A stretch of 21,278 bases of DNA from a virus. Both the position numbers and the translations under genes were made by a program. The stretch's first letter is position 1. The number at the start of each line of letters is the position of its first letter. The stretch lies in IMG/VR virus record IMGVR_UViG_3300044225_005665, positions 1 through 21,278 of that record. One strand, given 5' to 3'. Positions 291 to 15,253 of the stretch are shown in pieces. The notes under the pieces are model-generated. The model was not told where the DNA came from and did no database searches. It was given only the letters and a program-made list of their open reading frames with translations.

Positions 291-764
291 TTATACTAAT
301 TTAGTGTTTTGACTTTTAAATGATTCAAAATTATTTCTAACATTTTGTATTTCTCTCATTCTTTTTTGCATTATACTATAATTAGAAGGATTTAATCCTG
401 TAGGAGTACTAGGTGTTGTTGATATAAAAGATATATTAAAAGATAAATCTTGATATATTTTTGCTATTAAATCTAATATTTCTACTAAAGACGATAATAA
501 TTCATCACCTAATACTGCTGGTTGTTCTGGTAATGTATTATCAAATTCTAAACCTAAATAAATATTAGGAGAATTTATTACAAATTTACTTTCATTTTCG
601 TCTGAACTAGTATCAAAATGAAAACTACCATTAGTACTAAAACCTATAGCTTTATCAGAAAATAATAAAATACTATCTTCTTTTGCATTAAAAATTAATC
701 TATCTGAGTTAATTAGTACTTGATTTCCTTGATATGATCCTGGTGCTTGTGGTATATATGCCAT
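291..764 (-). CDS. Baseplate spike/hub-associated protein (157 aa)
   Basis: This 157-aa protein starts MAYIPQAPGSYQGNQVLI. Its first 70 residues look like short beta-strand repeats of the kind seen in phage spike or hub C-terminal parts: QVLINSDRLIFNAKEDSILL, then an AIGFSTNGSFHFD-type turn and FVINSPNIYLGL. Residues 80-105 (QPAVLGDELLSSLVEILDLI) form a helix, and the C-terminus is charged. Its start overlaps the stop of the M15 peptidase by 1 nt (764), and it is two genes from the OB-fold baseplate protein, so the three probably build one hub or needle assembly. The structural reading comes from sequence texture and context, not from catalytic residues. Confidence 0.7.
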   Translation of the reverse strand: MAYIPQAPGSYQGNQVLINSDRLIFNAKEDSILLFSDKAIGFSTNGSFHFDTSSDENESKFVINSPNIYLGLEFDNTLPEQPAVLGDELLSSLVEILDLIAKIYQDLSFNISFISTTPSTPTGLNPSNYSIMQKRMREIQNVRNNFESFKSQNTKLV

Positions 765-1351
765 TATATTAAATTTTGATCTGCTATTTTAATGCCATGA
801 GTATAATCTCCATTTCTACTTGTCCCTTCTGCTTTATACATTTCATGTAAATCTTCTCTTTGTGTTGCTATTGAATTAACTTTTATATTATTTTCTTCAA
901 CATAAGAAATATGAATCCATGTTAATGGATCTCTAGCTCCATCAACAAAATCACCAAATTCAGGATATTCCCAAATTAATTGATGGTATGCAGGTAAATT
1001 TTGATAACACCAATTCCATATTAAAGAGGCTTTTTGAGATACACTAAAAATATCAATAGCTAAACCATATTTGTGTTGTGAATTTGTTACTCCTCCTACT
1101 TCATTATTTAAAGCTTCACATCTATATGCTGATGTAATCCATATATCTTTATTTCCTGCGTTAGTATAAGGGGGAAAAGCTTTTCTTAAGGGATCTACAA
1201 TATTATAATGTACTTTTTGTAAATTACTTTTTATTTTAGCAAAAGAAAATTCTGTTCCTTTAAAACTATCTACTCCTGGAAAATTATCTATTCCTTTTGC
1301 ATTTGCTCTATTTGATACATAATATTCTTTAAAACTAAAATCTAATGCCAT
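764..1351 (-). CDS. M15-family peptidoglycan peptidase (D-Ala-D-Ala carboxypeptidase-like), tail-associated
   Basis: This 195-aa protein carries the zinc-peptidase signature of the M15 family. The first ligand motif is SQHKYGLAIDIF at residues 91-102, with the S-x-H-x(3)-G-x-A-x-D pattern (H93, D100). It is preceded by ITSAYRCEALNNEVGG, the usual substrate-loop segment, and a second ligand cluster WIHISY lies at 145-150 (H147). M15 enzymes cleave peptide cross-links or D-Ala-D-Ala bonds in the cell wall. No signal peptide is visible. It sits between two baseplate-type genes, so it is more likely a virion tail enzyme that opens the wall during DNA entry than a free endolysin, although a lysis role cannot be excluded. 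Confidence 0.85.
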   Translation of the reverse strand: MALDFSFKEYYVSNRANAKGIDNFPGVDSFKGTEFSFAKIKSNLQKVHYNIVDPLRKAFPPYTNAGNKDIWITSAYRCEALNNEVGGVTNSQHKYGLAIDIFSVSQKASLIWNWCYQNLPAYHQLIWEYPEFGDFVDGARDPLTWIHISYVEENNIKVNSIATQREDLHEMYKAEGTSRNGDYTHGIKIADQNLI

Positions 1352-1352
1352 T

Positions 1353-2315
1353 TTATAAATCTTCGGTATTAATATTATCTGGTATATTATAACTACTAGG
1401 TATTTCTAAATCATCAGCACCTTTAAAGAAATCACTATCTAAATCTTCTAATGAAGTTCCTTCTATTTCATAATATGCAAATTCTGTATCCTCTATAGAT
1501 TCTTCTATTTGTTGTAACTCTTCTGCAGGTAAATTAGATGCTCTATTTAATTCTATGTCTTCTTTTACATCTGATGTCATTTCAGTATCAGATATTGCTG
1601 GTTCTTCTTTTTGTATCTCTTTAAATATATCTTGACCATATGATTCATCATGCAATGAAGCTGGTTGAAAATTAGATAACTGCTGATCAGAACAAAGATA
1701 CATGCTGGAATGATCTCCATCTATATCTTCTAATATTCTTTCTCCTCCCTCTATATTTTTTAAATTAGAACTTTGTCCATTTCTAATGATGGTAATAGGA
1801 TTTCCTATAGCCCCTTCATTACTCCATCTATTAGGTTTTGATACTTTATTATTGTCTATAGTAGAACCAAATCTTATAGATTGTCCAAACCTACCTTCTA
1901 TCGTAATATCTCCTTCATATGGAAGTAAAGGGTTTATAATAGAAGGATCCGGAAAATACTGTCCCTTATAAAATTCATTATTGGAATCTAAACTATCAGG
2001 ATAAGCATCACTAGTAGGTAATTGATAAATAGAAATAGGAGGATGATAATAATAAATTTTTTTACCTGTTTTATTATAATCTTCATGAGGTTCTATAGTA
2101 ACATGAACTAATTCACCTGGTACGGGATAATGTGATATATTATAATTAAAAGGTTTAGCTAGTTTACAATTAGAACAATCAAAATCTACTGGGGTAGGGT
2201 CATCTATAAATGTAAATAAAATAGATCCTATAGAATTTTCTTTTCCATAAAAATTATAATATTTTTCTTGTAATTCTTTATCTGTTATTATTTCTTGAAC
2301 TCTAGCTAGTTTCAT
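1353..2315 (-). CDS. Baseplate hub-type protein with gp5-like OB-fold region (320 aa)
   Basis: The N-terminal half (about residues 25-180) resembles the OB-fold part of T4-type gp5 baseplate hub proteins in marine phages. Typical segments are YPVPGELVHV near 65-75, then a YEGDITIEGRFGQSIRFGS stretch near 133-151, NPITIIRNGQ near 172-181 and EDIDGDHSSMYLCSDQ near 196-211. The C-terminal 100 residues are acidic, low in predicted structure and rich in Glu/Asp. There is no lysozyme domain, unlike T4 gp5, and the neighbouring M15 peptidase could supply that activity separately. The start at 2315 overlaps the previous gene by 14 nt. The family call comes from remembered motif patterns, so it is moderate. 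Confidence 0.65.
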   Translation of the reverse strand: MKLARVQEIITDKELQEKYYNFYGKENSIGSILFTFIDDPTPVDFDCSNCKLAKPFNYNISHYPVPGELVHVTIEPHEDYNKTGKKIYYYHPPISIYQLPTSDAYPDSLDSNNEFYKGQYFPDPSIINPLLPYEGDITIEGRFGQSIRFGSTIDNNKVSKPNRWSNEGAIGNPITIIRNGQSSNLKNIEGGERILEDIDGDHSSMYLCSDQQLSNFQPASLHDESYGQDIFKEIQKEEPAISDTEMTSDVKEDIELNRASNLPAEELQQIEESIEDTEFAYYEIEGTSLEDLDSDFFKGADDLEIPSSYNIPDNINTEDL

Positions 2316-2685
2316 TTTGGTCTGGTGCTTCTATTTGTTTTGGTTTTTCAACAGTTTTAGCTATTTCTTCAGTTAAATCTTGAAGTTGAGCCATTTCTTC
2401 TTCTGTTAATAATCCACCATCACCTGAATTTACTGTACCTGTAGATAATCGTTGAACAACTGCTGCCATTTTTAATAAAGCATCATCATTTTTAACACTA
2501 ATTTCCATATATTCTTTTATTAATGGAACTACAACGGTAGCATCACCTAGTGATTGTACTAAAGGACGTAATTCTGCAATAAGTTGAGCTAGTTGTTTAG
2601 CTTTTTTCTTTTGATTACCATGAATTTCTTTTAGTAAATCACTAAATGTTTTATCATCGAATAATATTTGATTTAGTGGATCCAT
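2302..2685 (-). CDS. Unrecognised 127-aa helical protein in baseplate region
   Basis: This short, mostly helical protein begins MDPLNQILFDDKTFSDLLKE. Its middle contains a long Leu/Ala/Val-rich stretch (AQLIAELRPLVQSLGDA, then VVVPLIKEYMEISVKNDDAL) and the C-terminus is acidic and Gln-rich. No signal peptide, TM segment, Cys or catalytic motif is visible. Its end overlaps the OB-fold hub gene by 14 nt, which suggests translational coupling with that structural gene. It could be a chaperone or minor baseplate component, but no function can be assigned from the sequence. The start is the first ATG after the 27-nt gap that follows the sigma-like gene. Confidence 0.75.
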   Translation of the reverse strand: MDPLNQILFDDKTFSDLLKEIHGNQKKKAKQLAQLIAELRPLVQSLGDATVVVPLIKEYMEISVKNDDALLKMAAVVQRLSTGTVNSGDGGLLTEEEMAQLQDLTEEIAKTVEKPKQIEAPDQNETS

Positions 2686-2696
2686 ACTATTTTATT

Positions 2697-2704
2697 ATAA
2701 ATAT
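2697..2704 (-). promoter_or_regulatory. Candidate late-promoter string ATATTTAT
   Basis: The minus strand reads CCATATTTATAATAA in the short gap upstream of the gene starting at 2685. The same ATATTTAT string occurs in the gaps at 8729-8736 and 13960-13967. It is not the T4 late box TATAAATA in the coding orientation. Chance is a serious alternative in DNA this AT-rich. Confidence 0.2.
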
Positions 2705-2712
2705 GGGAAAAA

Positions 2713-3423
2713 TTAAACTTTTACGTAACCAGTTTCAATATATTCATCATATAATTTTTTATATAATTTTTTTAATATTTTAGTTACTTTAGTTATAACA
2801 GGAGTTTCTACTCCTGTCATTTCTCTTATATAAATATAAAGAGCTTTTTTATTAAATATTTCTAAATTTTCTCTACGTTTAAATAATATATTTACAGCAT
2901 CACATACTTTTCTATCATGATCCTTTTTAAACATAGTAAACATATTTTTATCTACATATTCTGTAAAATAGTCTATAAAATCTTTTAGCTCTTTTTTACG
3001 TTCATCTCTTCCTAATTGGCGTAGTACTCCTTCATCTTCATCAGCTGCTAAAGGGTCTGCTTTTTGTTTTTTCTTTTTGTAATTATTATTATTATATAAT
3101 ATAAGATAATTTTTACCTACAATAGAAAAATAACTAAATGCTTTAGATCCTTTTTCGGGTTTCCAATAATCTAGTTTTTCTAAGAAAAAACAAACTACTT
3201 CATGTTTTAAATCTTCTAAGGACTCTACTTCTGTGTAATAAAATTTAAATGTATGTATTAAATTTTCAGCTAATTTATAAAAAGCATAGTGAATACGATT
3301 TTTGTAAATATCGTCTCTTTTTTCTTGACTAGGTGCAATTAAATATTCTTGTATAGCAGCATCTACATCTGATGTAAAATATTGTTTTTTTGATGGTTTT
3401 CTACCTCTTTTTTTCTTTAACAT
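2713..3423 (-). CDS. gp55-like late-transcription sigma factor (putative)
   Basis: This 236-aa basic protein opens with MLKKKRGRKPSKK, an AT-hook-like tract. The region from about residue 45 to 115 has the layout of a divergent sigma-70 region 2 as in T4-type gp55: a helix with HYAFYKLAENLIHTF, then EDLKHEVVCFFLEKLDYW, then KGSKAFSYFSIVGKNYLI. A Lys/Asn-rich linker follows, then a C-terminal helical part (EIFNKKALYIYIREMTGVET) that could be an HTH-like region. Such factors direct the host RNA polymerase to late genes. It lies next to structural genes, as expected for a late-gene regulator. The call rests on pattern resemblance. Confidence 0.6.
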   Translation of the reverse strand: MLKKKRGRKPSKKQYFTSDVDAAIQEYLIAPSQEKRDDIYKNRIHYAFYKLAENLIHTFKFYYTEVESLEDLKHEVVCFFLEKLDYWKPEKGSKAFSYFSIVGKNYLILYNNNNYKKKKQKADPLAADEDEGVLRQLGRDERKKELKDFIDYFTEYVDKNMFTMFKKDHDRKVCDAVNILFKRRENLEIFNKKALYIYIREMTGVETPVITKVTKILKKLYKKLYDEYIETGYVKV

Positions 3424-3430
3424 TTACAAA

Positions 3431-3679
3431 TTATTTTAAAGTAAATTCATTTAAAGCTTCTTGTATTTTTTTAAGTTCTTCAAAAAACCATCCTATTTCA
3501 TCATCTGCATAAAAGATATTTTTATTATCTAATTCTTTTAATCTTCGATCACATGCTTCTATAGCTTCACTTTGTTTTGATATAAAATCTTCTAATCTTT
3601 CATTTTTAATTATTAAATTTCTAATTATAAAAAAAGAAGATGTTAATACTATTGTCAATATAATGCTAAGGGTAATCAT
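3431..3679 (-). CDS. Small single-TM membrane protein (82 aa)
   Basis: The N-terminal hydrophobic segment (about residues 2-22, ITLSIILTIVLTSSFFIIRN) is a membrane anchor. It is followed by a charged, probably coiled-coil stretch (ERLEDFISKQSEAIEA, RRLKELDNKN) and an acidic/aromatic tail (EIGWFFEELKKIQEAL). There is no lipobox or cleavage site, so an N-in anchored protein with an outside helix is likely. It is packed between the sigma-like gene and the HD gene with gaps of 7 and 2 nt. The role is unknown. Holin, spanin-like or membrane-tether functions are possible but unsupported. Confidence 0.75.
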   Translation of the reverse strand: MITLSIILTIVLTSSFFIIRNLIIKNERLEDFISKQSEAIEACDRRLKELDNKNIFYADDEIGWFFEELKKIQEALNEFTLK

Positions 3680-3681
3680 AA

Positions 3682-4470
3682 TTAATCTTTAAAGAATGAA
3701 TCTATAACATCAATAGTTGCTTTAGATAGATTCGGGTTATTTTCTGTGTTAACTTTTTTAGCTGCTCTTAATGTTTTATCACCTTTACTACCGTTTTTAG
3801 GTTTAGATGATTGTTTAGGTATTGAATTTGTAGTGCTATTCCAAATTTCAAATTCAATTTGAGCTGCCATATGGTCTGCTTGGTGCATTAATAATGGTAA
3901 ATGTGACCTTAATTTTGTTTCTTTCATACCAGACATAAAATAAAACTTATTACTCTCATCATATAAACCATCATGTATTTTAATACCAATATATTCATTT
4001 TGACTTACTTTACATCCTATTTCTTGTAATAAAAATAAAGAACGTTCTGGTATTTTCATTGCGGGAATATTAGTATTAAATTTATAAACTTGACCTAATT
4101 TATCAATATGCCATTGTGAATCATTTAATTGATAATATTCACCTTCTTGTTGACCCATCTTGCCTAAATCATGGAATAAAGCAACAAAATGCATTTCTTC
4201 AACGGTGTATGTAGATATATCACCACCCATTTTATTCCACGTTTTATATAATTCATTTGCACAGTCATATACACGTAAAACGTGATCAACATAACCCCCT
4301 GCAAATGCTGAATGGTGCCAATTTTTACTTGATGCGGGCATCATCATCATTCTTTCTTTATATTTTTCTAAAAAGGGAATTAATATATTTGTTCTTTCTT
4401 TAGATATATTAGTTTTTATTTCAGTAATATACCTATTCCAATTTGATTGGATTTTTTCTGCTGATAACAT
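3682..4470 (-). CDS. HD-domain metal-dependent phosphohydrolase
   Basis: This 262-aa protein has an HD-superfamily arrangement. The first ligand region WHHSAFAGGYVDHVLRVYD spans residues 51-69 (H53 and H63 are candidates). The HD doublet lies in ALFHDLGKMG (H100-D101), followed by IKIHDGLYD (H166-D167) and LMHQADHMAAQ (D199-H200). The H-x-A-x-x-G-G-x-x-x-H segment resembles YhaM-type HD nucleases and related phosphohydrolases, so the substrate could be nucleic acid 3' ends, dNTPs or a signalling nucleotide. The C-terminal 50 residues are Lys/Ser-rich and probably disordered. It is cotranscribed with the sigma-like gene. The HD fold is well supported and the substrate is not. Confidence 0.8.
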   Translation of the reverse strand: MLSAEKIQSNWNRYITEIKTNISKERTNILIPFLEKYKERMMMMPASSKNWHHSAFAGGYVDHVLRVYDCANELYKTWNKMGGDISTYTVEEMHFVALFHDLGKMGQQEGEYYQLNDSQWHIDKLGQVYKFNTNIPAMKIPERSLFLLQEIGCKVSQNEYIGIKIHDGLYDESNKFYFMSGMKETKLRSHLPLLMHQADHMAAQIEFEIWNSTTNSIPKQSSKPKNGSKGDKTLRAAKKVNTENNPNLSKATIDVIDSFFKD

Positions 4471-8756: not shown

Positions 8757-11700
8757 TTATTGTTTTATTATTCTTTTAGTTATTCTAAGTTTATCATAAA
8801 TTATAGATAAATTATATATTCCTTTAGGTGTATTTGTTAAATCTATTCTTTTTGTTTTTTGTTTAGATGTAATTAATCTTCCCATCATATCATGTACTTC
8901 TATATCTACTATTAATCTAGTATCTATATTTAATATATCTTGTGTTGGGTTTGGATAAACTATTATTGTTCCCGATTCTGCTTCTTCAATTGATGTTGGC
9001 CATCCTTGTTGACAGTAATTATACATTGATTGACATGAAGCATCCCAATCTGTGGTACAACAATAATCATCTATATCAATTACCCAAGCATAACATCCAT
9101 CATTTAACCAATATGGTACTCCGGGTCCTCCATAACAACCAGCATTATATAAACATGCTGTTGAATCAGAAACATTAGCTAAGGGATCATAATTCCAAGC
9201 TGACACATCTGTACATCCTGAGATAATTTCTATACATGAATTATCATCATAACAAGCAAACTCATTATAATTTAAAGCATTAGAATCTGTACATCCTGCA
9301 ATTAAACAACATGAATTATCTGTAGTATTAGCTAAAGGATTATAATTATATGCTAAAGGATCAGTACAACCATAAATAAAAGATTCGCAAGATCCATTAT
9401 CAACATTTGCTAAAGGGTTGTAATTCCACATTGTTGAATCTGTACATCCGTAAATTGGTAAAATACAACTACCATCATCTGTATTTGCATTTGGATCGTA
9501 ATTTAAAGCATTTTGATTAGTACAACCATAAAGAAATGGTATACATGTTCCATTATCTGTATTTGCTAATGGATTATAATTAAATTGAGTTGAATCTGTA
9601 CATCCGTAAATTGGTAATATACAAGATAAATCATCTGTATTTGCTAGTGGGTTATAATTTAATGCAATTGGATTAGTACAACCATAAATAATTATTTGAC
9701 AAGTTCCATTATCAGTATTAGCTAAAGGGTCATAATTAAATGCTGTACTATCTGTGCAACCATAAATGTAAGGGATACAATTTCCTGATGATGTGTTTGC
9801 ATTTGGATTAAAGTTGTACATTGTAGGATCCATACATCCAATTACAACTGATATACAAGAACTATCATTTGTATTTGCATTTACATCATAGTTAAATGCT
9901 GTTGGGTCTGTACAACCATAAATATAAGGAATACAAGAACCATCATCTGTATTAACAGTTATAGAATAATTAAACATTGTAGAATCGGTACAGCCATACA
10001 CATATGGAATACATGTACTATCATCATCAGTTGCAATTGAGTTGAAATTAATTGATAAAGGATTAGTACATCCTAAAATTTCTAATTCATCACATACTCC
10101 ATCACCATCTGTATCTAATATACAAACTCCATAACAGTTATAATATTGAATTGGATAAGTACATCCTCCATTATCTACATTTGCATTAGAATCATAGTTA
10201 CAAGCAATATTATCTGTACAACCTAAATATATACAATTACCATCTGATACATTTGCTAAAGAGTTATAATTGTAAGCTGATGTATCCATACAACCATATA
10301 CTGTTGCGACACATGTACCATCATCTGTATTAGCTAATGAATCGTAATTAAATGCTAACGGATTAGTACAACCATACATTATTGAAATACAACTTCCATT
10401 ATCAGTATTTACATCTATTAAAGGATCACCTGTTGGTTGAATATAATTTAATGCTGATGTATCTGTACAACCATATATTACTGGAATACATACATTACCA
10501 AATGTTGGTAAATCTTCAACTTCTAAAACATATGGAAAAGGGATAGCGTCCCAATAAAGAACTTCAATAAGTGTATCACCTGTTGGTCCCGTAAGTTTAT
10601 ATGCAATTTGATCTATTGAAGTTATTGATTGAGGAGTTGCAAACAAATATGCTGATACTGGTTCATATATATTTAATGGTATTTGAAATGAAATACTATT
10701 ACCATCATTAGCTCCCATTTTATATTGTGAAGATACCCAATCACCTTGTTGTAAACCTAACCATGTACCTCCCCACCCATCAGATGCTCCATCAAATATT
10801 TCTAAAGTATAATATCCAAATATATTTTCACTTGTATTTGCAGTTGTATCATAATTAAAAGAGTTTGTGTCTGTACAACCTACTGTTCTTGGGGGTCCAC
10901 AACTTCCATCATCAAAATCAGCATTTACATTAAATGTTGTTGATAAAGGATTAGTACAACCACCAACGGGCACATACAAATCACATACTGCAGGTTCAAA
11001 TTGAGGTGATGTTGCTAAATAATTAAAATTACCATCAGGATAATCGTCTTGTAAGTTATAAATAATATTTTCATCACAATCTAAAATTACCACGTTACCA
11101 TCAACAGTTCCTCCAAAACATGTACCACATAAACCATCTCCATAACTATCTTCGACTACTAAATCATAAAGTTGGTTTGTGTCAACACAAACAAAAGTAG
11201 AAATAGGTAATCCTTGTTGAGCTCCTGAATAAGTTCCTGTAGGTGCTTCGGCTACAAGTCCACTATCACCAAACAATTTCCAACTTAATTCTCCCCCATA
11301 ATTATCGGGAATAACTACTATAGCAATAGGTGTTTGACCTGTTGAACATGAAGGAATAGTAATACAAGAACCATCATCTATATTTGCCCATGGGTTAAAA
11401 TTAGGGCTTACTGAGTCTGTACAACCTAAAACAGCACCACAAGGTAAACAAGACTCCCAACATACTTGAGGTAAATTAATTCCTGAATCTATTACATTTA
11501 ATGTTCTATTGATAAAACCTTGTCCATCTGGTTGAAAACAAACTGAATTTGGACCTAATTGTGGTAATTCTTGAATTGTCCAATTATCTAACATGTATTT
11601 CCAAAGATATTGTCCTGGTGGTAGAGTTGTTGTATATTCCCAAATATTATCACCATCGGGATCTACCATTGGCATAGAATCAGTCCAATTAATAAAATCA

Positions 11701-12242
11701 CCAGTTACATAAGGTGTTAAAAAAGGATATGGATAATAAGTCATATCTAAAACAAAACTAACTTCATATACACAAGATCCATCTGATATTGTAGCTGTAG
11801 AATCATAGTTTGCTGCATCCGGATTTAAACATCCCATAATAGGAGGTGCACACGGTAATATATTAACTAATGTATCTAAAGTAAAAAATTGTAGTGTTAA
11901 TGGATCAAAGTTAATTATAGGTCCTTGACAATCATTCATCATTTTAAACCAAGCTGGGTTTTGTGATAACCAACCATCTCCATAATTATCAGTTAAAGTA
12001 ACTACGTAATTTCCAGAGTTTATGTTTATAATTGTATCTAAATATTCATGTGCTACCGTTGGTTGATGAAACATTACTGTGTCACCTGATATTGTATCTT
12101 CTACCATAAAGAAATTAGATTCTTGTGGTGCATAAAAATCATATTGTACTGCGAATCTTACCCAACTATCTGTTGGTGGTGGTCCTGGTTGTGCTAATAA
12201 AAATGTTGGCAATAATAATATAAATAATAATAATTTTTTCAT
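8757..12242 (-). CDS. Large secreted repeat protein with T9SS sorting domain (1161 aa)
   Basis: A signal peptide (MKKLLLFILLLPTFLLAQPG, probable cleavage after LLA) is followed by mixed beta domains containing DNYGDGWLS and DGASDGWGG, typical of Bacteroidota exoproteins. One segment (VTGDFINWTD, then WEYTTTLPPGQYLWKYML) resembles a carbohydrate-binding E-set domain. About twenty copies of a 22-26-residue repeat follow the pattern YGCTDxxAxNYNPLANTDDG(S/T)C, with one Cys at each end. Next is a DWDASCQSMYNYCQQ module. The last 70 residues (IIVYPNPTQDILNI, MMGRLI, GIYNLSI) form a type A T9SS C-terminal sorting domain. The product should cross the host outer membrane by the host's type IX machinery. 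A phage gene with this signal is unusual. The role is unknown: surface decoy, exclusion factor or matrix protein are guesses. Confidence 0.9.
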   Translation of the reverse strand: MKKLLLFILLLPTFLLAQPGPPPTDSWVRFAVQYDFYAPQESNFFMVEDTISGDTVMFHQPTVAHEYLDTIININSGNYVVTLTDNYGDGWLSQNPAWFKMMNDCQGPIINFDPLTLQFFTLDTLVNILPCAPPIMGCLNPDAANYDSTATISDGSCVYEVSFVLDMTYYPYPFLTPYVTGDFINWTDSMPMVDPDGDNIWEYTTTLPPGQYLWKYMLDNWTIQELPQLGPNSVCFQPDGQGFINRTLNVIDSGINLPQVCWESCLPCGAVLGCTDSVSPNFNPWANIDDGSCITIPSCSTGQTPIAIVVIPDNYGGELSWKLFGDSGLVAEAPTGTYSGAQQGLPISTFVCVDTNQLYDLVVEDSYGDGLCGTCFGGTVDGNVVILDCDENIIYNLQDDYPDGNFNYLATSPQFEPAVCDLYVPVGGCTNPLSTTFNVNADFDDGSCGPPRTVGCTDTNSFNYDTTANTSENIFGYYTLEIFDGASDGWGGTWLGLQQGDWVSSQYKMGANDGNSISFQIPLNIYEPVSAYLFATPQSITSIDQIAYKLTGPTGDTLIEVLYWDAIPFPYVLEVEDLPTFGNVCIPVIYGCTDTSALNYIQPTGDPLIDVNTDNGSCISIMYGCTNPLAFNYDSLANTDDGTCVATVYGCMDTSAYNYNSLANVSDGNCIYLGCTDNIACNYDSNANVDNGGCTYPIQYYNCYGVCILDTDGDGVCDELEILGCTNPLSINFNSIATDDDSTCIPYVYGCTDSTMFNYSITVNTDDGSCIPYIYGCTDPTAFNYDVNANTNDSSCISVVIGCMDPTMYNFNPNANTSSGNCIPYIYGCTDSTAFNYDPLANTDNGTCQIIIYGCTNPIALNYNPLANTDDLSCILPIYGCTDSTQFNYNPLANTDNGTCIPFLYGCTNQNALNYDPNANTDDGSCILPIYGCTDSTMWNYNPLANVDNGSCESFIYGCTDPLAYNYNPLANTTDNSCCLIAGCTDSNALNYNEFACYDDNSCIEIISGCTDVSAWNYDPLANVSDSTACLYNAGCYGGPGVPYWLNDGCYAWVIDIDDYCCTTDWDASCQSMYNYCQQGWPTSIEEAESGTIIVYPNPTQDILNIDTRLIVDIEVHDMMGRLITSKQKTKRIDLTNTPKGIYNLSIIYDKLRITKRIIKQ
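9150..10485 (-). repeat. Dense in-frame tandem protein-repeat region of the T9SS gene
   Basis: About sixteen successive units of 66-80 nt are visible in the coding strand. Each encodes GC(T/M)(D/N)-x(3)-(A/F)-NY-x(4)-AN-x-D-(D/N)-G-(S/T)-C with a short IYG-type linker. Units differ at many synonymous positions, so expansion is not very recent. A few units are long or lack a Cys. Recombination between units could change copy number. Confidence 0.85.
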
Positions 12243-12879: not shown

Positions 12880-13935
12880 TTAAAATATTACGTAATTTAC
12901 CCCAAATGAAAAGTCATGCCACTTTCTATTCCAATATTTATTATATTTTCCTTCTACAAATGCCCCTAAACTTTTATTAAATTTATAACCAAAAATTAGT
13001 CCACCTGAATAATCTATCCATTGACCATTATTAAATTTATGGTAAGAATATTCATCATTTCTATCTAAATGGTAGGGCATTAAATTACCCCAACTATGAA
13101 GCCAAAAATCATTTGTAAAATGATAATAATCAAATCCCATAACTATAGAATGTTGTAGTGTTTGACTTAATTCGTTTCGTTTTTTTTCTGTATAATTTGA
13201 TAATACTTGAGGTATAACTACACCCTCCCATATTTGAGTATTTTCTGCTACTATATTATTTGAAGGATCAAAATAAATTTCTCCTCCTAAACCATCAAAT
13301 TCAATAGTATATCCTTCTTGTAGCGCTAGTTGTGTATAGTGTAAGTTACCATTTGATAATAACCATTCTTCTAAGGGATCATAACCATAGGGTTCAGATA
13401 ATCTTTGTACTGTACCTACATTAAAAGATAATTTTTTACCTATTTTATATCTATATCTTTGTGAAGCTTCAAAATATTTTATATCAGCAAATCCATCTTG
13501 GATATATTCTACTTTAGTTATCCAATCATCTGCTACATATCTTAAAAAATGTTGTTGATTTAAAAACTTAATACCTTGTTGTCTAGTATAATCTAATTCA
13601 AATAAAAATTCAAATCCTTTAATTTTACCTATAGTTGCATTATCTGAAAAAGAATTTTCAGTACCATTGTAGAATGTATTAGCTCTATTTTCATATCCTA
13701 ATCTTGCTATTTTTCTAACACCTAGAGCAATAGAATAATCAAAAGGTGTTTTTATTGTATTTGTTTCTAAACCATTAGTAACTGAAAATACATCTACATC
13801 TGATATAGAATTACCTCCATTAACAGCACCATAAAATGTTGCAAATTTAAAAACCTTTTTTAATTTGGGTTTCCATTCTTGAGAGGAAGCATTTAATGTA
13901 GTTAATGCTAGGATTAAAAACAAAATCTTTTTCAT
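12880..13935 (-). CDS. Outer-membrane beta-barrel-like protein (351 aa)
   Basis: A signal peptide (MKKILFLILALTTLNASSQE) precedes about 330 residues of alternating polar and aromatic/hydrophobic strands (FEFLFELDYTRQQG, RYRYKIGKKLSFNVGTVQRL, GLIFGYKFNKSLGAFVEGKY). The protein ends FSFGVNYVIF, with the C-terminal Phe characteristic of outer-membrane barrels handled by the BAM complex. A phage-encoded outer-membrane protein could alter the host surface, for example by blocking superinfection. It is the first gene after the tmRNA terminator and heads the exported-protein cluster. The barrel is inferred from the strand pattern, the signal peptide and the terminal aromatic. No specific family is recognised. 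Confidence 0.75.
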   Translation of the reverse strand: MKKILFLILALTTLNASSQEWKPKLKKVFKFATFYGAVNGGNSISDVDVFSVTNGLETNTIKTPFDYSIALGVRKIARLGYENRANTFYNGTENSFSDNATIGKIKGFEFLFELDYTRQQGIKFLNQQHFLRYVADDWITKVEYIQDGFADIKYFEASQRYRYKIGKKLSFNVGTVQRLSEPYGYDPLEEWLLSNGNLHYTQLALQEGYTIEFDGLGGEIYFDPSNNIVAENTQIWEGVVIPQVLSNYTEKKRNELSQTLQHSIVMGFDYYHFTNDFWLHSWGNLMPYHLDRNDEYSYHKFNNGQWIDYSGGLIFGYKFNKSLGAFVEGKYNKYWNRKWHDFSFGVNYVIF

Positions 13936-13959
13936 ATACGGATATTATAATATACGGAG

Positions 13960-13967
13960 ATAAATAT
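13960..13967 (-). promoter_or_regulatory. Candidate promoter string ATATTTAT upstream of the envelope cassette
   Basis: Immediately after the tmRNA terminator the minus strand reads TATATTTATCTCC, 25 nt before the ATG at 13935. A new start of transcription is needed here if the terminator is effective. It shares ATATTTAT with 2697 and 8729. A CCGTATATTATAA string closer to the gene is an alternative. Confidence 0.25.
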
Positions 13968-13995
13968 AAAAAAAAAAGAGCAGCCTAGGCTGCTC
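13968..13995 (-). terminator. Rho-independent terminator after the tmRNA coding piece
   Basis: The minus strand has a 7-bp GC-rich stem, GAGCAGC / GCTGCTC (13989-13995 with 13978-13984), around a CTAG loop, followed by ten T residues (13968-13977). It ends the tmRNA/tRNA transcript and separates it from the beta-barrel gene. Confidence 0.92.
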
Positions 13996-14219
13996 CTTAG
14001 AGTTTTTACGACGTATACTCCATTATGCCGTTGGTGATGGGTACCTTATTAGGCAGCCATCGCAAGTACTGGTTCTTTAGTAGCAATTTCTTTTGTTCCC
14101 AAAAGTCTAATTGCAGCTAAAGTAGCAAATATACCTGCTTTTACCGGTTTAATCTGTGTGCCGATTAACGCATTGATCTTCGTTATATCCTTATCTTGCT
14201 GTCAAAACCAGTCATCCCC
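13996..14219 (-). ncRNA. ssrA: tmRNA coding piece (5' half of a permuted two-piece tmRNA)
   Basis: The piece starts GGGGATGACTGGTTTTGACA at 14219, matching the conserved tmRNA 5' end (acceptor strand plus D-loop-like UGG-x-UU-x-GAC). GGGGATG (14213-14219) pairs with CATCTCC (14312-14318) of the acceptor piece, with G3-U70. H2: GATATAAC (14182-14189) pairs with GTTATATT (14352-14359). A PK1-like pseudoknot is formed by TTAATC (14163-14168) with GATTAA (14149-14154) and CGG (14161-14163) with CCG (14145-14147). A tag frame then ends with ATG GCT GCC TAA TAA (stops 14046-14051). If it resumes at the GCT at 14126 or the GCA at 14114, the tag is 25 or 21 residues and ends PVLAMAA. No tRNA-like 3' end lies downstream, only the terminator. 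The mature 3' end is not known exactly. Confidence 0.9.
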
Positions 14220-14232
14220 TTTATTATATTAG

Positions 14233-14306
14233 TGGAGAATATCGGAGTCGAACCGATGACCTCTTGCGTGCAAAGCAAGCGCTCTAGCCAACTGAGCTAA
14301 TTCCCC
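14233..14306 (-). tRNA. tRNA-Ala(UGC)
   Basis: A complete cloverleaf lies on the minus strand. The acceptor stem is GGGGAAT/ATTCTCC with G3-U70 (the alanine identity pair). The D-arm has GCTC/GAGC, the anticodon stem CTTGC/GCAAG encloses TTTGCAC (anticodon TGC), and the T-arm is ATCGG-TTCGACT-CCGAT. The discriminator is A and CCA is not encoded. It lies 4 nt after the tmRNA acceptor end (14311) and 13 nt before the tmRNA 5' end (14219), so it occupies the intervening segment of the permuted tmRNA gene. Confidence 0.97.
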
Positions 14307-14310
14307 TTTG

Positions 14311-14370
14311 TGGAGATGCCGGGAATCGAACCCGGGTCCATACAAGCAGCTAATATAACTACTAGCGATC
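14311..14370 (-). ncRNA. ssrA: tmRNA acceptor piece (3' half of a permuted two-piece tmRNA)
   Basis: On the minus strand the piece begins near GATCGCTAGTAGTTATATT, directly after the stop of the small gene at 14372. It continues through CTGCTTGTATGGAC to a perfect T-arm, CCGGG-TTCGATT-CCCGG, and ends CATCTCC plus discriminator A at 14311, followed by CAAA, so CCA is not encoded. There is no tRNA D-arm or anticodon arm upstream, so it is not an ordinary tRNA. Its acceptor strand and H2 strand (14352-14359) pair with the coding piece at 13996-14219. GATC (14367-14370) can add pairs with GATC at 14175-14178. The 5' boundary is uncertain by several nt. Confidence 0.88.
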
Positions 14371-14371
14371 A

Positions 14372-14545
14372 TTAATAATTATCTAAATCTTCCCAATCAA
14401 TAGTACTATTTGTTTCTTCTAATTTATATTGTTCAATTTCTTCTTTTAACCTATAAAGTGTTTCAAGTATTTCTGTTTTTGTTAAAGAATCATCTCTTTC
14501 AATATCATCAATTAGTCTTTCAAAATCATCAAGAATTATATCCAT
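14372..14545 (-). CDS. Small acidic protein (57 aa)
   Basis: A 57-codon frame starts at the ATG at 14545 (MDIILDDFERLIDDIERDDS), overlaps the upstream gene's end by 17 nt and stops at 14372, immediately before the tmRNA acceptor piece. The protein is acidic and probably all-helical (LTKTEILETLYRLKEEIEQY, then TIDWEDLDNY). It has no TM segment or Cys. The overlap and continued operon packing support it. Its stop adjoins the RNA gene so closely that the mRNA and the tmRNA precursor are likely one transcript. The function is unknown. Confidence 0.7.
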   Translation of the reverse strand: MDIILDDFERLIDDIERDDSLTKTEILETLYRLKEEIEQYKLEETNSTIDWEDLDNY

Positions 14546-14717
14546 TTTTTTCTTTTATTCGTTTTAAAGCATATTCCCATTTTTCAACAGGAGTTTTCCA
14601 TTTATGTTTTAATTGAGTATTCATTTTTTTAAGTTGTTTATTAAATTTTGGCCATAAACCACTTTCAGTTAATTCTGTATGAATTTCATACATTGTATCT
14701 TCTGTTTGTTTACTCAT
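14529..14717 (-). CDS. Small basic protein (62 aa)
   Basis: This 62-aa protein begins MSKQTEDTMYEIHTELTESG and continues LWPKFNKQLKKMNTQLKHKW, then KTPVEKWEYALKRIKEKNG. The Trp/Lys-rich helical pattern resembles small proteins I associate with marine T4-like phages, with no defined role. The start overlaps the upstream gene's end by 8 nt and the end overlaps the next start by 17 nt, which fits coupled translation. There is no TM segment, Cys or catalytic motif. Confidence 0.72.
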   Translation of the reverse strand: MSKQTEDTMYEIHTELTESGLWPKFNKQLKKMNTQLKHKWKTPVEKWEYALKRIKEKNGYNS

Positions 14718-14856
14718 ATTTACCTATTACTTTATTATATGCTTTTACGTATGCATCTAATTTTGAAAGCCATGTTCCTTTTATAGAAGCTTCTAACATA
14801 TTATATTCTGCTTGAGTTTTTACTTCATTTTTTAAACCATAAGCTCCAGCCTCCAT
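14710..14856 (-). CDS. Small helical protein, start uncertain (at least 48 aa)
   Basis: The supported part runs from the ATG at 14856 (MEAGAYGLKNEVKTQAEYNM) to a stop at 14710. The frame is open back to an ATG at 15063, but that part overlaps the 111-aa gene by 146 nt and reads as Lys-rich out-of-frame sequence. Residues just upstream of the chosen Met (DDEFQIEQIL) look like genuine protein, so the true start may be somewhat earlier, although no ATG, GTG or TTG lies in frame between 14856 and 14920. The helical EAGAYGL segment suggests a small regulatory or accessory protein. The function is unknown. Confidence 0.55.
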   Translation of the reverse strand: MEAGAYGLKNEVKTQAEYNMLEASIKGTWLSKLDAYVKAYNKVIGKYE

Positions 14857-14917
14857 TAATATTTGTTCTATCTGAAATTCATCATCACTTAGTATTTCAA
14901 AACTTTCTGTGCTATAT

Positions 14918-15253
14918 TCATAATCTTTTTTTTGGTTTTCTTCCTCTTTTTTTAGGTTTGTCTCCTGGAAAAAGTTTATAATGTTCTGTCCAGTACTTTT
15001 TTTCAGCACTTTCAAGCGCAGTTTTGTCAGCCTTAGTTGTTCTTTTTTTTCTCCCATTTTCATGATATTTAGGTTTTTGTAAACGTTCTAATTTATTATA
15101 TAACTTTTCTAATTTATCAAATTTAGAATCTATAATTTCTACTAAATAAGGACCATTAGGGAATTTATTTTCATCATAATACCATATAGAATCTTCAAAT
15201 TCTAATTTATATTTTAATTTTTTAGTTATATTTTCTGCTGGTCTTCCTCTCAT
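14918..15253 (-). CDS. Basic protein with N- and C-terminal GRP/AT-hook-like motifs (111 aa)
   Basis: The protein starts MRGRPAENITKKLKYKLEFE and ends DKPKKRGRKPKKRL, so GRP-type basic motifs that can sit in the AT minor groove flank it at both ends. The middle has SIWYYDENKFPNGPYLVEII and a helical KLEKLYNKLERLQKP segment, then a Lys/Arg/Thr-rich stretch (ENGRKKRTTKADKTALESAE). It overlaps the VWA gene end by 4 nt. DNA binding is likely from the charge and motifs. A transcription or nucleoid-associated role in this AT-rich genome is inference. Confidence 0.75.
   Translation of the reverse strand: MRGRPAENITKKLKYKLEFEDSIWYYDENKFPNGPYLVEIIDSKFDKLEKLYNKLERLQKPKYHENGRKKRTTKADKTALESAEKKYWTEHYKLFPGDKPKKRGRKPKKRL

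Follow-up and report, generated by a model that had tools for sequence, protein, structure and literature searches.

Evidence for a circularly permuted phage tmRNA gene with a tRNA-Ala(UGC) gene in its intervening sequence

The DNA analyzed here, hereafter the window, is a stretch of 21,278 nucleotides from a marine virus, taken from an IMG/VR record. It carries on its minus strand (14371-13999) a permuted tmRNA, whose elements follow one another in the order acceptor piece, tRNA-Ala(UGC), coding piece, post-tag pseudoknot and terminator. The acceptor piece (14311..14371, its 5' end being presumptive) was delimited with ARAGORN, the Rfam model RF04321 and the covariation seen in an alignment of relatives (A1, see below). 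It successively contains three strands recognized by covariation (H2b, 14371-14367; H2a, 14359-14352; and H2c, 14346-14342), the T-arm of the tmRNA (CCGGGTTCGATTCCCGG, 14335-14319) and the 3' strand of the acceptor stem (CATCTCC, 14318-14312), followed by the discriminator base A73 at 14311. A 4-nt linker, CAAA (14307..14310), which does not encode CCA, leads to the tRNA-Ala (14233..14306), a complete cloverleaf with anticodon UGC, G3:U70 and A73. This tRNA was identified by ARAGORN, by the Rfam tRNA model RF00005 (70.5 bits, E 7.6e-14) and by compensatory changes relative to its counterparts in two relatives, L001 and L002. A second linker of 13 nt (CTAATATAATAAA, 14220..14232) then precedes the tmRNA 5' end. 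CCA is encoded at neither of the two acceptor ends, the sequence being CAA at 14311 and CTA at 14233.

The 5' part of the coding piece (14174..14219), defined by RF04321 and by covariation, brings the complementary strands, i.e., the acceptor 5' strand (GGGGATG, 14219-14213), H2c (14199-14195), H2a (14189-14182) and H2b (14178-14174). It is followed by a tag reading frame of 37 codons and its stop (GTQIKPVKAGIFATLAAIRLLGTKEIATKEPVLAMAA; 14049..14162, stop at 14051-14049) and by an H-type pseudoknot (13999..14031), in which stem 1 pairs 14031-14027 with 14012-14008 and stem 2 pairs 14021-14017 with 14003-13999. An intrinsic terminator hairpin with its T run closes the unit (13975..13998). Every landmark that the original prediction had listed was thus found in place, from the T-arm, CATCTCC and the A at 14311, through the 4-nt gap, the tRNA-Ala(UGC) and the 13-nt gap, to the tmRNA 5' end, the tag frame and the terminator (hairpin at 13998-13975). 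On the same strand, three small ORFs (117, 62 and 57 aa; 14372..15063) lie upstream and are likely the head of the operon, and a gene for a 351-aa protein lies directly downstream (12880..13935); relatives of this gene likewise stand behind the tmRNA in other phages with a long tag, such as L002.

The permuted nature of the gene was confirmed independently. ARAGORN calls a permuted tmRNA (tmRNA*) at 13958-14403 with a tRNA-Ala(TGC) within it, and the covariance model tmRNA_permuted (RF04321) matches the window with 70.2 bits (E 6.2e-12), above its cut-off of 47 bits. Moreover, a search of the whole window for the T-loop motif GTTCGANNC returned only two occurrences, one belonging to the tmRNA and the other to the tRNA. 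Hence, the tag is not followed by a conventional 3' half, and the order is truly permuted, as had been proposed.

The host can be placed at the level of the phylum. The window encodes, at 8757-12242, a 1161-aa protein with many repeats of the YGCTDPxAxNYxxxANxDDGSC type and with a C-terminal type 9 secretion system (T9SS) sorting domain (Por_Secre_tail, PF18962, 43.1 bits), apparently a phage protein built for the type 9 secretion of the host. This sorting domain is a secretion signal of Bacteroidota. In addition, six collinear genes of the window (291-4470) have homologues, in the same order, in Flavobacterium phage immuto (77165-80233, 31-48% identity), a phage that encodes gp20- and gp23-like head proteins and in which ARAGORN found no tmRNA. 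Taken together, the PF18962 domain and the six collinear homologues make a Bacteroidota host a well supported assignment for this phage, itself known from a metagenomic contig alone.

We then considered whether the two tmRNA pieces belong together. The alignment A1 joins the 5' parts of the coding pieces to the acceptor pieces of 24 distinct relatives, the spacer having been removed. Across the acceptor stem, the T-stem and three inter-piece helices, 99.0% of the cells are paired, and the covariation score reaches 0.389, against a mean of 0.148 for shuffled alignments (0 of 500 attain 0.389) and at most 0.078 when the partners are slid. Changes on both sides were observed at 13 pairs of the whole structure, including four of the five pairs of H2c and four of the five of H2b, and RNAalifold recovers the same helices unaided. 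The 7-bp acceptor stem between the pieces bears the alanine identity elements G3:U70 and A73, and it covaries. This stem and the 8-bp H2 helix (14189-14182 with 14359-14352) had been predicted from the window, and the pairs of both indeed covary in relatives; two further helices, 14199-14195 with 14346-14342 and 14178-14174 with 14371-14367, had been overlooked. In the post-tag pseudoknot, stem 2 also covaries in 20 relatives (score 0.939 versus 0.453 after shuffling, 0 of 500), in an alignment where six rows were re-registered by hand by one column, while stem 1 is nearly invariant and therefore uninformative. Folding of the window precursor on its own was uninformative. Its minimum lies at -56.4 kcal/mol and the canonical fold at -49.1 to -52.6 kcal/mol, so that an alternative in which the acceptor-stem partners are swapped is favored by 4-7 kcal/mol; the two acceptor stems are similar and can exchange partners. 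Single-sequence folding of the precursor, in which the canonical structure is not recovered (z -0.75), was thus discarded as support.

The tag frame exists in two lengths. The 37-codon frame is free of indels and stops in the window and in L002, L090 (where it is cut off near its end), L099, L100, L109, L118 and L111, and the remaining relatives have a 10-codon tag of the type GEQVEMAMAA. Judging from the alignment with these 10-codon relatives, the resume codon is probably GGC at 14162; ARAGORN starts the frame later. The tag ends in AMAA in the window and in AMA(A/V) in the relatives, and the frame is open in every complete copy. The pN/pS ratio of the 37-codon tag is 0.74 in frame, versus 0.58 and 0.91 out of frame. 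As the tag frame does not stand out from the other frames in these ratios, it is the open frame and the conserved end that argue for translation of the long tag. Where the locus extends far enough, the gene downstream of the long-tag members is a relative of the 351-aa gene of the window. Another relative of this gene occurs on contig IMGVR_UViG_3300030433_001734 (L074 and L086, the same contig), together with a one-piece tmRNA with the tag AESHSSALPLQSVELALAA; both forms of tmRNA thus occur among related phages.

Could the tmRNA pieces be the decaying remnants of a host gene, only the tRNA mattering to the phage? The preference of the single sequence for another fold would agree with this, as would a long tag devoid of a clear codon-level signal and the damaged state of one relative, L111, where the 5' part of the coding piece has been lost; the tmRNA gene is thus not indispensable in every relative. 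The strong covariation of the inter-piece helices in 24 sequences and of the pseudoknot in 20, and the tag frames that stay open and end in AMA(A/V) in every complete copy, largely contradict it, and we give this explanation very little credit.

A pattern search for the acceptor piece in IMG/VR recovered at least 29 related loci. Acceptor piece and coding piece follow each other in the same order in all of them except L111, three (L102, L106 and L117) stopping inside the coding piece, shortly past its 5' end. What lies between the two pieces is far more variable. A tRNA-Ala is present in the window and in two IMG/VR contigs whose flanks differ (L001 and L002), a tRNA-Glu(TTC) in L104, and a stretch of about 70 nt where no tRNA is called in L103, L107 and L110; the majority, i.e., the remaining relatives, have a spacer of 17-21 nt. 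In one of the latter, L090, homologues of the 62- and 117-aa genes precede the tmRNA, and the pieces are separated by 20 nt that contain no tRNA; L090 hence represents an empty site. The tRNA-Glu in the L104 spacer is identical (73/73) to a free-standing tRNA-Glu of the related phage L103, so the same tRNA is found both inside and outside the slot. The order of pieces expected in relatives is therefore kept, and the tRNA, rather than being a fixed part of the arrangement, is an optional, variable insert. With this gap empty or filled with other tRNAs in related viruses, the spacer appears to be repeatedly used by viruses as a tRNA slot.

These comparisons also bear on the quality of the assemblies. 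All the genomes concerned are metagenomic contigs, in which fragments of a tRNA and of a tmRNA might have been misjoined. Three contigs that differ in their flanks and have diverged in sequence show the same order, and a like arrangement occurs with tRNA-Glu and tRNA-Asn in other loci, which leaves an assembly artefact with a negligible probability. Direct DNA similarity to isolate phages matched only the tRNA or the T-arm, and none of the isolates in the collection carries a window-type tmRNA. The sole match among genome contigs, L084, is a tRNA array without tmRNA and was rejected as a false positive.

The three tRNA-Ala copies share 62-64 of their 74 bases. Pairing is preserved in all their stems, three pairs of the anticodon stem and two of the T-stem having undergone compensatory changes, and the anticodon UGC, G3:U70 and A73 are constant. 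This pattern, drawn from three sequences only, fits a tRNA-Ala that is kept functional. In a tree of the tmRNA parts (about 175 columns), the three tRNA-Ala carriers do not form one clade (AU p 0.0047) and the presence of a tRNA requires at least four changes of state. A single origin of the tRNA-Ala insertion was consequently rejected, in a tree that is short and where recombination is possible; about 175 columns allow repeated gain, repeated loss or recombination as the source of the scattered distribution.

Considering all these data, we hold it very likely that the window carries a phage-encoded, circularly permuted tmRNA gene with a working tRNA-Ala(UGC) gene in its intervening sequence, and the arrangement originally proposed, in a phage of Bacteroidota, is supported. 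From the established processing of tRNAs and tmRNAs, its maturation can be pictured as follows. Transcription up to the terminator would yield a single RNA comprising the acceptor piece, the tRNA-Ala and the coding piece. Two cuts by host RNase P would follow. The one at 14306, where the tRNA begins, would release the acceptor piece with a trailer of 4 nt, and the one at 14219, where the coding piece begins, would release the tRNA with a trailer of 13 nt. Trimming of the 3' ends and addition of CCA at 14311 and 14233 would then complete both alanine-accepting ends, which could be charged. The two tmRNA pieces would pair again through the acceptor stem and the three H2 helices, and the tmRNA, bound by host SmpB, would rescue stalled ribosomes and add a tag ending in AMAA.

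The role of the tRNA itself is a separate matter. We tentatively propose that, in phages, tRNA genes recurrently land in the spacer of permuted tmRNAs, and that the tRNA acts there as a processing module, whose own RNase P and 3' sites would cut the precursor into its pieces, while supplying an alanine tRNA. The window would then carry a tRNA-punctuated tmRNA, in a phage-borne lineage of permuted tmRNAs separate from the three described so far. Alternatively, the tmRNA would be functional and the tRNA a mere passenger, copied into a neutral, AT-rich spacer and having no selected role; it would be tolerated as long as processing is undisturbed. The absence of the tRNA from most relatives, its scattering over the tmRNA tree with at least four changes of state, and the filling of the slot by different tRNAs (Ala, Glu and Asn) are what such a passenger would predict. 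On the other hand, the compensatory changes in three diverged tRNA-Ala copies indicate that the fold has been kept over time, and the carriers of the window-type tmRNA family showed no broken tRNA. We therefore regard a passenger without function as rather unlikely.

The landing-site proposal extends to other permuted tmRNAs, in which we searched more generally for a second T-loop between the acceptor end and the coding 5' end. An intact tRNA-Asn(GTT) was found in the spacer of L137, L190, L194, L248, L249, L250 and L242, the first three of which match the cyanobacterial model RF01851 with 100-121 bits. These cyanophage-type loci resemble the window in having an intact tRNA as the intervening sequence, and differ from it in the identity of the tRNA and, for L137, L190 and L194, in the cyano-type tmRNA. 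Several of them lie within Asp-Tyr-Thr tRNA arrays. In the isolates S-CAM4, S-SM1, ACG-2014e and ACG-2014g, tRNA-Thr and tRNA-Asn are close together without a tmRNA, and in the isolate S-SSM7 a few nt separate the two pieces of a cyanophage-type permuted tmRNA. Among at least 120 loci with spacers of 75-105 nt, ARAGORN called an intact tRNA in L137, L190 and L194, L104 having been found separately. With tRNA-Ala and tRNA-Glu in the window family and tRNA-Asn in the cyanobacterial type, tRNAs are thus present in the spacers of at least two types of permuted tmRNA. The spacers of L187, L232, L240, L241 and L243-L247 contain T-arm-like hairpins with a long closing helix, and L232 also a tRNA-like D-arm; these may be degenerate tRNAs, the search pattern itself having required a T-loop.

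The window family shares with the two-piece tmRNAs of Alphaproteobacteria, Betaproteobacteria and Cyanobacteria (RF01849, RF01850 and RF01851, merged in RF04321) the order of the pieces, the acceptor stem, the T-arm, H2 and the tag frame. Four of its members (L090, L091, L099 and L118) score above the cut-off of RF04321 only and below those of the three separate models, a comparison that rests on relatives since a same-clan tRNA match masks the test in the window. The first 20 nt of the tmRNA in this family are identical to those of one-piece phage tmRNAs, e.g., L089 and L093. From these sequence comparisons, it looks like a separate phage-borne family of permuted tmRNAs, outside the three modelled lineages.

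The locus is not without precedent. Two-piece tmRNAs are known from phages, such tmRNAs accounting for 53 of 133 unique phage tmRNA structures in PMC9004378, 50 of them from aquatic phages, with three lineages named. These tmRNAs, e.g., that of methylophage Melnitz, are likewise phage-borne, permuted and marine; they are of alphaproteobacterial, gammaproteobacterial or cyanobacterial type, and no tRNA in the spacer is mentioned where that paper describes them. A tRNA-Ala in the intervening sequence of a tmRNA, for which the original prediction knew of no precedent, has also been reported once: in a MAG that is nominally archaeal (GCA-2688965__sp002688965.2), Nawrocki, Petrov and Williams (2025, PMC11915505) describe a single permuted tmRNA enclosing an intact tRNA-Ala with a high score, call this a unique feature and warn of misbinning. 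Going by its published description, this case shares the tRNA-Ala in the intervening sequence with the window, and is single and without a phage link. It is conceivable, as a guess, that the tmRNA of this MAG comes from a window-type phage. The part of the claim that stands is the phylum, no earlier report of permuted tmRNAs having been found for phages of Bacteroidota. What is new is thus this Bacteroidota-phage family and its recurrent tRNA capture, neither being described in the main text of PMC11915505 or PMC9004378, where a supplementary entry is possible. An isolated oddity, a tRNA-Ala spacer in a doubtful archaeal MAG, is thereby linked to a recurrent phage arrangement, and the natural series of empty, tRNA-Ala, tRNA-Glu and tRNA-Asn spacers makes tRNA capture and its effect on tmRNA maturation directly testable. 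It also carries a warning for annotation, as such genes can be missed by pipelines that discard a tmRNA call when it overlaps a high-scoring tRNA.

Several minor features accompany these loci. Of 23 distinct sequences upstream of acceptor pieces, 15 (L001, L096-L099, L101-L104, L107, L108, L110, L112, L116 and L118) have the motif TATTTATA at 14-16 nt before the conserved acceptor motif, with 0.006 expected in each; the window, L002 and L090 lack it there. Read in reverse complement, it is the T4 late promoter TATAAATA. This motif is promoter-like, and transcription from it would start near the 5' end of the acceptor RNA. The spacers of about 70 nt in L103, L107 and L110 contain two copies of a TATATTCAATTAGATATAAT-like repeat. 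Four related phages have the DUF805b RNA motif (RF02914) at no more than about 1 kb from the tmRNA (L001:4347-4386, L103:8511-8548, L107:3622-3656 and L110:10073-10107). Directly behind the coding piece of another permuted tmRNA, a tRNA was observed that matches RF00005 with 42.8 bits and contains an insert of about 70 nt (L087:2783-2922), and in a one-piece tmRNA (L092:1062-1500) the T-loop region is apparently interrupted by an intron-like insert.
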